From positions 1-33,372 of the IMG/VR virus record IMGVR_UViG_3300043409_000172: DNA of 33,372 nucleotides; one strand, written 5' to 3'. Under the pieces are notes generated by a model. That model saw nothing but the letters and a program-made list of their open reading frames with translations, did no database searches and was not told the DNA's origin. Of the stretch, positions 6,583 through 11,974 are shown piece after piece; position 1 is the first letter of the stretch, and every line of letters begins with the position of its first letter. A program made the position numbers and the translations under genes. Source of the stretch: a virus.

Positions 6583-7381
6583 TCTTCGGGCTTTACCTTA
6601 TTACAAATGGTTTTGGCAAGATTGGAGAGCAAATCGGAAAGCCCAACGAATGAATTATATAGAAAGAGGTTTATATCGTGAGTTATTGGATGAATGTTGG
6701 GTAGAAGGATCAATACCTAATGATTTAAATATCCTTGCTGAAATATGTGGTTGTCCAAATGATGTTATGGCAAATGCTTGGCAAGTGCTAGAGAGTTGCT
6801 TTAAGTTGATAGAAGATGTTTATATCAATGAAAAGATGGAATCTTTAAGAACTGAAAAAGATACTGAACGATTAATTAAAGCCCTAAGTGGTAAAAAAGG
6901 TGGTGTTTCTAAATCTTTGAATATTAAGGAAGAAATAATTAAATCCAAGCAAGTGCTAGCAAGTGCTAAGCAAGTTCTAGCATCTGCCAATATAGAAGAG
7001 GAGAGAAGAGAAGAGAAGAGTATAGAAGAGAAGAGAACTACTATATTAGTGGAATCTAAGATTCCCCCATGTCCTCATTCTGAGATTATTAATATTTATC
7101 ATGAAGTATTACCTGAACTACCTAGAGTTGTATCTTGGAATAAAACACGAGAGGGTTATCTAAAACAACGATGGAGACAAATGTTCATAGAGTTTGAATG
7201 TAAAGACACAGAAGATGGACTAGATTGGTTTAGAAATGACTTTTTTGTATTTGTAAAAGGTTCAAAGTTTCTGACAGGAAAGGTGGTCAATAAAGACCGA
7301 AAACCTTTCTTGGCAGATTTAGAGTGGATGATTAAGCCTACAAACTTCACCAAAATAATAGAGAGAAAATATGAGAATTAA
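6575..7381 (+). CDS. DUF1376-containing phage replication protein
   Basis: A 268-residue protein. Residues about 5-60 (LPYYKWFWQDWRANRKAQRM, then YIERGLYRELLDECWVEGSI) are a DUF1376 domain, found at the N-terminus of O-like phage replication initiators. A low-complexity Lys/Glu linker follows (about residues 105-165), containing a 21-bp tandem repeat and a long purine run. The C-terminal part has W-KTREGYLKQRWRQMF and DWFRNDFFVFVKGSKFLTGK, similar to the C-terminal domain of several phage replication proteins. It probably binds the origin or loads the host helicase. ATG 6575 is chosen because the upstream 14 codons lie inside the preceding gene. Confidence 0.85.
   Translation: MSDLRALPYYKWFWQDWRANRKAQRMNYIERGLYRELLDECWVEGSIPNDLNILAEICGCPNDVMANAWQVLESCFKLIEDVYINEKMESLRTEKDTERLIKALSGKKGGVSKSLNIKEEIIKSKQVLASAKQVLASANIEEERREEKSIEEKRTTILVESKIPPCPHSEIINIYHEVLPELPRVVSWNKTREGYLKQRWRQMFIEFECKDTEDGLDWFRNDFFVFVKGSKFLTGKVVNKDRKPFLADLEWMIKPTNFTKIIERKYEN
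6948..6989 (+). repeat. 21-bp tandem repeat inside the replication gene
   Basis: Two head-to-tail 21-bp units encode KQVLASA twice in the linker of the DUF1376 protein. They differ at four positions (CAAGTGCT against CATCTGCC at the end, and one G/T inside). The in-frame length suggests slippage or unequal recombination in a flexible linker. DnaA-type or initiator iterons near a replication gene are another possibility, but two copies are not enough to argue for it. Confidence 0.7.
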
Positions 7382-7832
7382 ACTTGATAAACCTGTTTTG
7401 CAAGAGAAAAAGAGTTATTTCTGTAACGCTTATGGCTGTAAGCTACAAGCAAGTATGGGATTAGGAACAGATGGAACTGGTGCGTTTTACTGTCGATTTC
7501 ATTACGGATCAAAGCCAAACAAGAATGATTACATAACGCTACAGATTGATAAAAACAAAGACTTGGTGAACTTCTTGGATATGTCACTAAGACCTGAGTT
7601 GTTCTTTGAGGGTTCATTTGATGATAGAGCAAACTTAACTTTAAAGACTGGTTTAAGAGATTTAGGACTAGAACATTTATGGGATGCGACAAATTATAAG
7701 ACTTCAAAGGCTATATTAGGTGAGTTGAACTCCAGATTAGATGTGAATTTAGAAAAACAGTTTGCCAAAAAAGAAGTCACAGAACAGTTTAAAACGATGT
7801 TAGAAATGTTAAAAAAGGGGAAACATGAATGA
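7371..7832 (+). CDS. unknown protein with Cys/His cluster
   Basis: A 153-residue protein. The first 45 residues hold CNAYGCKL and FYCRFHYG, giving three cysteines and a histidine that could bind zinc. The remainder is helical and charged, ending KKEVTEQFKTMLEMLKKGKH. It starts inside the 3' end of the replication gene and ends inside the start of the methyltransferase gene. Its place after the initiator suggests a replication or DNA-binding role, but I do not recognise the family. Confidence 0.75.
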   Translation: MRIKLDKPVLQEKKSYFCNAYGCKLQASMGLGTDGTGAFYCRFHYGSKPNKNDYITLQIDKNKDLVNFLDMSLRPELFFEGSFDDRANLTLKTGLRDLGLEHLWDATNYKTSKAILGELNSRLDVNLEKQFAKKEVTEQFKTMLEMLKKGKHE

Positions 7833-8634
7833 GTTGGCTCTTTTCGCAGGTGCTGGTGGAGGAATACTTGGGGGACATTTGCTTGGATGGCGAACAGTCT
7901 GTGCAGTTGAATGGGAAGCCTACCCAGCTAGCGTACTTGTCGCAAGACAAAATGACAAAATACTCCCGCCTTTCCCGATTTGGGATGATGTACAAACCTT
8001 TGACGGAAAACCTTGGAGAGGAATTGTTGATGTTGTATCTGGAGGATTTCCATGCCAAGACATTTCAGCCGCGGGGGGGGGGGCTGGAATTGATGGAGAA
8101 AGAAGTGGAATGTGGCGAGAGATGGCAAGGATTATTGGCGAGGTTAGACCCAAATACGCATTTGTGGAAAATTCCCCAATGCTCACTACTAGAGGACTCG
8201 GAACAGTCCTTAGAGACTTGGCCCAGATGGGGTACGATGCAGAATGGGGAGTGCTTTCAGCAGCCGATGTTGGTGCAAACCACGAAAGAGACAGAATTTG
8301 GATTGTTGCCAAACAACGAGACATTCTTTCATACACCGAACACGACAGGGTTAGATGGGGGAAGCAACAGTCGAAAAGCATTGAAAAAACGGATGGAAAA
8401 ATACCCAACACCAGTAGCGAGAATGTGGAAAGACATGAATTGCCCTGCAGAACATCGGAGGGATTCTTTGCCTTTGGCAGCCATCGCTGGTGGAGCATTG
8501 AACCCAACCTGGACCGAGTGGCTCATGGGGTGGCCTCTAGAGTGGACAGACTTAAAGCCATTGGAAATGGACAAGTCCCACTTTGTGCTGCAACAGCCTG
8601 GTCAATCTTAATGGAGAGAATAAATGAATCTTGA
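7825..8634 (+). CDS. C5-cytosine DNA methyltransferase
   Basis: A 269-residue enzyme that would transfer a methyl group from S-adenosylmethionine to carbon 5 of cytosine, probably protecting phage DNA from host restriction. Motif I is LFAGAGGG (6-13). Motif IV is GGFPCQD with catalytic Cys77. Motif VI is FVENSP with Glu115, motif VIII is ERDRIWIVA (154-162) and motif IX/X is LKAIGNGQVP (243-252). The target-recognition part between 163 and 240 is short. An 11-G run (8073-8083) encodes the glycines after motif IV. The region looks richer in G and C than its surroundings. A second long frame overlaps almost all of it. Confidence 0.93.
   Translation: MNELALFAGAGGGILGGHLLGWRTVCAVEWEAYPASVLVARQNDKILPPFPIWDDVQTFDGKPWRGIVDVVSGGFPCQDISAAGGGAGIDGERSGMWREMARIIGEVRPKYAFVENSPMLTTRGLGTVLRDLAQMGYDAEWGVLSAADVGANHERDRIWIVAKQRDILSYTEHDRVRWGKQQSKSIEKTDGKIPNTSSENVERHELPCRTSEGFFAFGSHRWWSIEPNLDRVAHGVASRVDRLKAIGNGQVPLCAATAWSILMERINES
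7829..8611 (+). CDS. overlapping frame in the methyltransferase gene (MSWLFSQ family), possibly translated
   Basis: A 260-codon frame, +1 to the methyltransferase, starting 4 bases after its ATG with the same ribosome site and ending 23 bases before its stop. It begins MSWLFSQVLVEEYLGD. Middle phrases are RLSRFGMMYKPLT and WKIPQCSLLEDSEQSLETW. The end has TPVARMWKD, ALNPTWTEWLMGWPLEW and TDLKPLEMDK. I recall database proteins with these same phrases, so the frame recurs in other phages. Those records could be genuine products or only conceptual translations of the same gene. The protein lacks methyltransferase motifs. Against coding: the antisense strand is also open for 195 codons here, so local composition favours open frames. 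Confidence 0.5.
   Translation: MSWLFSQVLVEEYLGDICLDGEQSVQLNGKPTQLAYLSQDKMTKYSRLSRFGMMYKPLTENLGEELLMLYLEDFHAKTFQPRGGGLELMEKEVECGERWQGLLARLDPNTHLWKIPQCSLLEDSEQSLETWPRWGTMQNGECFQQPMLVQTTKETEFGLLPNNETFFHTPNTTGLDGGSNSRKALKKRMEKYPTPVARMWKDMNCPAEHRRDSLPLAAIAGGALNPTWTEWLMGWPLEWTDLKPLEMDKSHFVLQQPGQS
8073..8083 (+). repeat. poly-G tract (11 G) inside both overlapping frames
   Basis: Eleven consecutive G in an AT-rich genome, just after the catalytic motif of the methyltransferase (codons 83-87). A change of one G would fuse the catalytic half of the enzyme to the C-terminal half of the overlapping frame. Such tracts are classic sites of replication slippage, and also of sequencing error. Confidence 0.9.
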
Positions 8635-10263: not shown

Positions 10264-10406
10264 AGAACGAACCTAAAAAACTAGATTTTAGTCTTAAAGC
10301 ACCAAAAGGTTATCAGAATACGCTTGATAAAAAAGAAAAAGAAAGGATCATGCGTAAAGAAAAGATAACAAAAGCATTTAATAAGATAGTAAAAGACCCA
10401 TTCTGA
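10260..10406 (+). CDS. 48-residue lysine-rich protein, unknown
   Basis: A short frame in the 10264-10405 gap. It starts MKNEPKKLDFSLKAPKGYQN and ends NKIVKDPF. It is very basic (many Lys). Its ATG overlaps the previous stop and its TGA overlaps the next ATG (TGATG at 10404-10408), the same coupling as its neighbours. No family is recognised. Confidence 0.65.
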   Translation: MKNEPKKLDFSLKAPKGYQNTLDKKEKERIMRKEKITKAFNKIVKDPF

Positions 10407-11974
10407 TGGACAACGAAACCCTTGCTAGTTTATTAAGAGGTAGAAATCGTGCAGGACAACCTGTAGATGCTACTGCTAATATTATTGGCCCTGCTATGAG
10501 TGCATTGGGCAACACAATATATGGTGCTGGTCGTGGTGCTTTAACTGCGATGGCTGGATTGCCTGGTGACATTAATCAATTAATCACAGACAACATAGGA
10601 ACTCTTGTAAATGCACAAGGATTACCTACAACAAAAGAAATTCAAGACTTTTTACCTTTCAAACCTACGACTTATGAGGGTAAGTTAGCCCAAAAATTAG
10701 GTGAATTTGTACCTGTAAACCCAACACCAATAGCTAAGGGTGCAGTAGCAATAGCTAAACCAGTAGGAAAAGCAATTGGAGAGCAAGCATATCGCATGAC
10801 TGAGGATATGTTACAAAAAGAAGGATTAATGCCAAGCGTTGTACCTGTTGGCCCGAACCGAATACCATCAAACGAAATACTTTTCCCTAATAGAACATTG
10901 CAAAGTTTAACCCCTGCTGAAAAATCTGCATTAACTAAATTTGATAAAGCATTAGCTAATCCTGCAGTTCGAAGGAGAGAAACACTAGCATTAGAAGGCC
11001 GAACTATATTAAAACCTAATATGGAAATGGCTGAACGAAATATTATTTTGCCAGAACAAATGCAGAATAAGATGTTAGTACCTGTTGTTGGTGACACATC
11101 AGAGGCTGGTTTAGAATTAAGTCAAATAAAAGGTGTACCTTTAGCTAGAAATGTAGATTTGCAAGGTGGTGGTAATTACATGAGGATGCAACCCAATATT
11201 GCTGAAAATAGAGCATGGGCATCTGAACCAGAGGCTGCAACTAGTAAACAGAACAATCTAACGGCTGCTGGACAATCGGGTAAGGATGTTTTGGGAGTTT
11301 ACACAACAATGTCACCTGAGGGTATTAATTTTTCACATCATGTGGCAGAGGCCATGATTGGTCAATTACCTGTATTAAAACCATCAAAAACTGCAATATC
11401 AGCATTAAACAATGAAATACAAAATTTAGCCGTAGTAAAAAAGAACAAAAAAACAGGTGAAAAGACTACATCTTATCCTTATAAAAACTTTGCTGGTGTA
11501 ACAAGTCCTAACATATACGAACAATTAGCTAATGGAACATCTACAGCTAGTGCTGGAAATTTAAGAAAAGCTATTGTTGAAACAATGAGTAAAGCAGAAT
11601 ATCGAAATATGGGATTTCCAAGATGGGAAGATGTTGCTGATGCTGTAATTACACCTGAGTTAAGAAACGCACCAACAGGCGAGGCAGGATATGGAATATT
11701 TCAAGGCATACCTGAAGATCCTATTATGCTTGCTAATACTTTAAGACATGGTAGTTATTCAGCAGGCATACCAGGCAAAATGGTAGGTGGACTAGAAAAT
11801 ACAATCCCATCAGAGTTAATGTTCCCTAAATCTTATGCTGCACAAAAAGCTATGGGTAGAGATCCTACCAAAATTAATCGTTCATTTATGATGAGCCATC
11901 AACAAGAACTTGCAGACCAACAATGGCTAGATAATATTATGCAGCATCTTGAAAGGCAGAAGTCTGGTCAATGA
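10406..11974 (+). CDS. large phage protein of unknown function upstream of terminase
   Basis: A 522-residue protein. Residues about 25-60 (MSALGNTIYGAGRGALTAMA then GLPGDINQL) are a hydrophobic Gly/Ala segment also typical of virion-ejected proteins. The middle contains PLARNVDLQGGGNYMRMQPN and VLGVYTTMSPEGINFSHHVA. The C-terminal part ends ADQQWLDNIMQHLERQKSGQ. I have seen similar phage proteins with the GGG-x-x-MR and FSHH phrases, but no function is assigned. It could be a structural or internal virion protein or an enzyme whose catalytic residues are the His pair. It directly precedes the packaging module. Confidence 0.8.
   Translation: MDNETLASLLRGRNRAGQPVDATANIIGPAMSALGNTIYGAGRGALTAMAGLPGDINQLITDNIGTLVNAQGLPTTKEIQDFLPFKPTTYEGKLAQKLGEFVPVNPTPIAKGAVAIAKPVGKAIGEQAYRMTEDMLQKEGLMPSVVPVGPNRIPSNEILFPNRTLQSLTPAEKSALTKFDKALANPAVRRRETLALEGRTILKPNMEMAERNIILPEQMQNKMLVPVVGDTSEAGLELSQIKGVPLARNVDLQGGGNYMRMQPNIAENRAWASEPEAATSKQNNLTAAGQSGKDVLGVYTTMSPEGINFSHHVAEAMIGQLPVLKPSKTAISALNNEIQNLAVVKKNKKTGEKTTSYPYKNFAGVTSPNIYEQLANGTSTASAGNLRKAIVETMSKAEYRNMGFPRWEDVADAVITPELRNAPTGEAGYGIFQGIPEDPIMLANTLRHGSYSAGIPGKMVGGLENTIPSELMFPKSYAAQKAMGRDPTKINRSFMMSHQQELADQQWLDNIMQHLERQKSGQ

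Follow-up and report, generated by a model that had tools for sequence, protein, structure and literature searches.

The small open reading frame of the C5 methyltransferase M.EcoHK31I, which targets YGGCCR, lies inside the large one, in a different frame, and encodes a beta polypeptide of 176 aa, and M.AquI targets CYCGRG. SPR, phi3T and rho11 are multispecific phage C5 methyltransferases that carry tandem TRDs in single chains. M.EcoHK31I and M.AquI are established two-polypeptide C5 enzymes with motif IX on the second polypeptide; the large subunit of M.EcoHK31I contains motifs I-VIII and X, and a predicted TRD was reported there too, while M.AquI is split inside its variable region (PMC3404938). 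The ShiLan methylase contains a hidden HNH element (PMC11855218), which is a different kind of insertion from the nested subunit described below. Our literature searches turned up no account of a nested phage methyltransferase.

The DNA that we analyzed, hereafter the window, is a 33,372-base virus record in which a C5-cytosine DNA methyltransferase frame (alpha, 7825-8634, 269 aa) overlaps a +1 frame (beta, 7829-8611, 260 aa). Alpha has motifs I-VIII and X without an in-frame motif IX, and beta, which is supported by its open frame, a phrog_1008 match and substitution rates, has a putative recognition region and motif IX. All features located here within alpha, beta and their start region are on the plus strand. 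The locus very probably encodes a split C5 methyltransferase in which recognition subunit beta is nested within catalytic subunit alpha; translation, assembly and activity of the two subunits are what we infer from sequence.

Like the large subunit of M.EcoHK31I, alpha combines motifs I-VIII with motif X and leaves motif IX to the smaller protein. However, the predicted TRD of M.EcoHK31I is in its large subunit, whereas the recognition region here is constrained only in beta, which also spans nearly the whole gene and shares its start region. Because the position of the TRD differs, we do not assign the locus to the M.EcoHK31I group, and we liken the two by described layout and probable way of working rather than by sequence. 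The layout of M.AquI is resembled by gp7/gp6 of phage Suarez and gp79/gp78 of phage Twister, but M.AquI beta carries motif X too, whereas the window keeps motif X in alpha and has one gene inside the other. Shelly gp56, Suarez gp6 and Twister gp78 are phrog_1008 relatives and belong to the same beta family as the window. Unlike beta of the window, the betas of Shelly and R9.1 begin well inside alpha, and those of Suarez and Twister overlap alpha in part and include motif X. As in SPR, phi3T and rho11, several exchangeable modules lie between motifs VIII and IX, but here they are in the second frame and their role in recognition is predicted. Placement of the recognition region in beta, near-complete overlap and module shuffling distinguish the present family from the known split enzymes.

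Two frames open from one start box

The initial annotation described two frames with ATGs 4 nt apart behind a single Shine-Dalgarno, and the sequence bears this out. The alpha ATG (7825) and the beta ATG (7829) stand in CATGAATGAGT behind AAGGGG (7815-7820), which is 4 nt ahead of the former and 8 nt ahead of the latter. The upstream gene (7371-7832) ends with a TGA (7830-7832) that overlaps the beta start, and three frames converge within this shared initiation box (7815-7832). A third-frame stop is present inside the box in 125 of 126 genes, where it terminates a long upstream ORF in a minority only.

Of 126 distinct genes, 125 retain the beta ATG, in line with the conserved second ATG that the initial annotation expected. 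Alpha starts in the same box with ATG (66 genes), GTG (23) or TTG (18), and the remainder start elsewhere. In 11 loci beta can begin upstream of alpha (MSWLISKALMN...), which suggests that the order of starts can flip with both proteins persisting. In L061, L089, L109, L121, L131, L149 and L158, beta opens with MSWLISxALMN or a variant of it, ~27 nt upstream, and the alpha start falls inside beta, the reverse of the usual order.

The +1 frame avoids stop codons

With only the alpha protein as query, we fetched 80 viral loci, which together with the window yielded 76 distinct genes. Beta is open in all 76: it begins in the common start region and ends close to where alpha stops (-22 to +50 nt), a stop-free +1 stretch of ~240-340 codons. 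When synonymous codons were permuted within each gene, which preserves the alpha protein and its codon usage, the shuffled genes contained a mean of 5.7 stops in the +1 frame (2.7 in the lowest gene), and this frame stayed open in at most ~2% of shuffles. Stop-codon avoidance, which had been proposed as a check in homologues, is therefore evident.

The dual-coded gene has a GC content of 48% in a genome of 34-41%, which suggests that composition contributes somewhat to openness. Composition does not explain the open +1 frame, because the +2 frame of the same 76 genes has ~20 stops on average. The argument that 260 open codons in an AT-rich genome reflect selection thus holds as to selection on both frames and as to the genome, but the gene itself is 48% GC. 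Either recent acquisition or dual-coding constraint could account for a gene of this composition in such a phage.

Constraint passes from one frame to the other

Changes between 41-46 independent gene pairs were classified according to what they alter in the two frames, with 78 neighbour-gene pairs from the same loci as controls. Over the whole gene, beta NN/NS was 0.36 compared with 0.66 in controls, and beta SN/SS was 0.34 compared with 0.70, which is the suppression of synonymous change that the initial annotation expected. The pattern by position is the key result. Codons 2-165 are under strong constraint in alpha. At codons 166-240 (8320-8544), which in beta encode the putative recognition region and motif IX, alpha evolves freely (NN/SN 0.97): alpha-nonsynonymous/beta-synonymous changes reach 0.32-0.57 per site across blocks, and beta-altering changes are much rarer than alpha-only changes, rarest at codons 226-240. 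In that last block (beta NPTWTEWLMGWPLEW), values of.039 (NN),.317 (NS) and.064 (SN) indicate constraint in beta only, whereas at codons 241-255 (alpha DRLKAIGNGQVP, motif X) values of.010,.042 and.219, respectively, indicate that alpha is constrained and beta is free. Constraint therefore passes from alpha to beta at codons 166-240 and back to alpha at codons 241-255.

A second test, which is independent of rates, compared the observed and expected effects on beta of alpha-synonymous changes using BLOSUM scores. Such changes in codons 2-166 were biased toward beta-conservative outcomes (+0.16 to +0.44 BLOSUM, t 2.4-4.6), whereas neighbour control genes scored -0.09, without this bias. New beta stops numbered 0 in codons 2-45 compared with 14.9 expected, and 22 over the whole gene compared with 63 expected. 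Taken together, stop avoidance, rates relative to neighbour genes and the conservative bias indicate selection on both frames, as was initially proposed. Recoding of divergent homologues was also tried as a test for beta and was set aside: large z-scores were obtained in the +1 frame but also in the +2 frame (codons 2-165), which indicates that the test detects conserved synonymous sites and not which frame conserves them.

Alpha as a catalytic half and beta as its probable complement

The assignment of alpha to the C5 methyltransferases is confirmed by a PF00145 match (8.9e-32, above the Pfam cut-off), which covers residues 4-188 only, and by a Foldseek search with the alpha model, for which M.HaeIII and M.HhaI were the best matches. 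The motifs typical of the large domain of the family, I, IV (PCQ), VI (ENx), VIII and X, are present in alpha. GGFPCQ, which contains the catalytic PCQ of motif IV (8050-8058), is conserved together with ENSP, R157 and GN in 64 sequences (alignment A4), and motif X (DRLKAIGNGQVPL, 8545-8583) coincides with the codons constrained in alpha and free in beta. Motif IX and a recognition domain, which the family carries in the same chain, are instead both found in the +1 frame. In the AlphaFold model of alpha, the large domain (residues 1-166) is good and motif X forms a helix at the C-terminus; most of residues 169-246 score below pLDDT 50, and the linker region has pLDDT 31-46. The partial PF00145 match and the predicted disorder of residues 169-246 suggest that alpha pairs a catalytic domain with a linker that is unstructured, and this modelled linker occupies the place of the usual C5 recognition domain and motif IX.

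Beta of the window matches phrog_1008 (1e-21), as do all 121 beta sequences scanned (alignment A1), and other phages do share the phrases MSWLFSQ and WLMGWPxxWTDLKP, as the initial annotation had it. The C-terminal LNPTWTEWLMGWPLEWTDL of beta corresponds by layout to C5 motif IX (M.HhaI LHPRECARVMGYPDSYKV), and the motif as delimited by us (NPTWTEWLMGWPLEWTDL, 8501-8554) includes the codons under beta-only constraint and is also present in gp78 of phage Rabbitrun. The PF00145 profile gave a weak match at its positions 286-316 on this motif (E 0.26), and phmmer placed a second domain on M.HhaI 273-306, below significance. Beta had no match among Pfam and PDB sequences, the beta and IX-X profiles found no C5 enzyme among PDB sequences, and profile-profile comparison of beta with alpha returned nothing, as expected. 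Beta modelled alone gave a poor result (pLDDT 57, pTM 0.24), which leaves its fold unproven. The N-terminal part of beta (~80 residues), which is not needed for motif IX, is also under selection.

Modules between the beta core and motif IX

Between its core and motif IX, beta contains one to five units that start with xPTP or a variant. We parsed 88 betas (38 others were left unparsed by the simple pattern) and obtained 212 units, which fell into 54 clusters that recur in varied combinations. Module 1 of the window (FHTPNTTGLDGGSNSRKALKKRMEK, 8327-8401; cluster 0) is the first unit in 58 of the 88 parsed betas and is followed by many different modules, and module 2 (YPTPVARMWKDMNCPAEHRRDSLPLAAIAGGAL, 8402-8500; cluster 3) is preceded by at least five different modules. 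Locus L040 shares 155 of 160 alpha residues with the window before the module region and 20 of 23 in motif IX, but in the module region itself the aligned beta residues agree at 22 of 65 positions. Exchange of recognition modules would be expected to leave such a pattern, with the modules as the presumed contacts to DNA, and the xPTP modules are plausibly swappable recognition elements. The alpha frame could tolerate such exchange because only openness is required of it there. Mosaics of 1-5 xPTP modules beside near-identical catalytic parts were observed in the window (8327-8500), L040, L010, L003, L005, L025 and L027.

Related arrangements in phages and bacteria

In Suarez, gp7 contains motifs I-VIII and ends after VIII, and gp6, in the +1 frame, contains an LPTP recognition region, EWMMGWPDGWVT (motif IX) and IGNGVCPQQA (motif X). 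Twister (gp79/gp78) and Jinkies have a similar staggered layout. Rabbitrun gp78 carries EWMMGFPPGWVT...FGNAV (motifs IX and X) in one chain with motifs I-VIII. In this Gordonia phage (L190:1224-2087) part of the LFPTP region is still in the +1 frame of the single chain, which suggests a split enzyme that has become partly fused. The nested beta of Paenibacillus phage Shelly, gp56, is annotated as 'g55 internal gene', and Bacteroides phage BU730P1, with 35% alpha identity, has a +1 beta that ends in motif IX.

Alpha-like C5 enzymes were found in 76 of 369 gammaproteobacterial genomes and beta in 12. At bacterial loci without an in-frame motif IX (L209, L211-L214 and L216-L218), the +1 frame has 0-3 stops, mostly ahead of the beta start, and ends in motif IX, which in L217 is a textbook example (RRMLPSEYEILQGFPEGWTEV); L215 was judged by eye to follow the same pattern. 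Of the bacterial loci sampled, those whose motif IX was recognised in frame contain 4-20 stops in the +1 frame and no motif IX there. The sampled bacterial C5 methyltransferases thus have motif IX in the main frame or in the +1 frame, but never in both.

Alternative explanations

Beta could be a separate regulatory protein, such as an inhibitor, an anti-restriction factor or an adaptor, nested in a complete methyltransferase. Its lack of a match to a known fold and the selection on its N-terminal ~80 residues would suit such a protein, but alpha is incomplete, since it has no motif IX and its VIII-X region is neutral and predicted to be disordered. Furthermore, motifs IX and X are part of the beta relatives of Suarez, Twister and Jinkies, these motifs share a chain with I-VIII in Rabbitrun, and the distant Bacteroides phage beta retains the motif IX end without the MSWLFSQ part. 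We therefore regard a regulatory protein as very improbable. The initial annotation had suggested a partner, an inhibitor or an anti-restriction factor; a partner is supported by the recognition region and motif IX that beta has and alpha lacks, and nothing supports either of the other two roles.

A programmed frameshift that moves ribosomes from the alpha frame to the beta frame once motif VIII has been read, possibly followed by a return shift, would yield a fused enzyme. The hand-over points after motifs VIII and IX sit where such a fusion would need them, overlaps of the Suarez and Twister type could work in this way, and Rabbitrun is a genetic fusion. However, at the start of the gene beta has an ATG of its own (conserved in the 125 of 126 genes above), its N-terminal half is under selection yet would be absent from any frameshift product, and regaining motif X would require two shifts in opposite directions, which makes a frameshift very improbable. 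It could also be argued that the +1 frame is no gene and is open through composition and conservation of the methyltransferase protein, since the gene is 48% GC, the antisense strand does have the open frame of 195 codons that was initially noted, and conserved methyltransferase motifs force similar +1 peptides. Synonymous shuffles nevertheless introduce stops (~5.7), canonical methyltransferases whose motif IX is recognised in frame contain 4-20 of them in the +1 frame, and beta is more constrained than alpha at codons 166-240. Chance openness is already refuted by this pattern of rates, unless the alignments are systematically wrong.

Proposed mechanism and significance

For the split methyltransferase that we favor, alpha would supply the AdoMet-binding, catalytic large domain (motifs I-VIII and X), and beta would supply the small domain, which comprises the exchangeable recognition region of xPTP modules and motif IX. 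Ribosomes at the one Shine-Dalgarno would choose between the two ATGs and make both subunits from one message, and alpha and beta would then assemble into a single C5 methyltransferase. The enzyme would methylate phage DNA at a target site set by beta, most likely for protection from host restriction. Nesting may also keep the pair together during horizontal transfer. The gene is surrounded by replication and recombination genes, and no restriction enzyme was recognised among the neighbours scanned; the likely role is therefore that of an orphan methyltransferase that protects DNA.

On balance, we lean toward the broader view that the locus represents a class of split methyltransferases that is widespread and largely missed by annotation. 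In this class, the entire recognition subunit would be dual-coded within the gene of the catalytic subunit, shuffled xPTP modules (1-5 per protein) would create new specificities, and the catalytic frame would serve as a tolerant linker. If so, many cytosine methyltransferase genes of phages, plasmids and bacteria that are annotated as complete or as 'inactive' would encode one half of an enzyme whose other half, which sets specificity, is concealed in the +1 frame; this would affect methylome prediction, restriction-modification annotation and enzyme cloning. A simple rule would follow: where motif IX is absent in frame (a tail like RVAHGVPNRVDRLKALGN), the +1 frame should be searched. The locus would also be an unusually clear case of dual coding, with constraint handed between frames motif by motif, and its modules would make the origin of methyltransferase specificity testable.

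Elsewhere in the window, a 522-aa ORF without a PHROG or Pfam match is located near the terminase gene (10406-11974). In a prophage of E. coli PCP07014, annotated as a pseudogene, stops in alpha and beta occur at most 4 nt apart (L181:1860-1869), and the two halves are lost together. Gene 9.1 of Streptomyces phage phiBT1 (L189:1218-2330) is annotated 'DNA methylase may be inactive', and an unannotated +1 ORF at this locus contains a recognition region, motif IX and motif X, which suggests that this enzyme is probably not dead but split.
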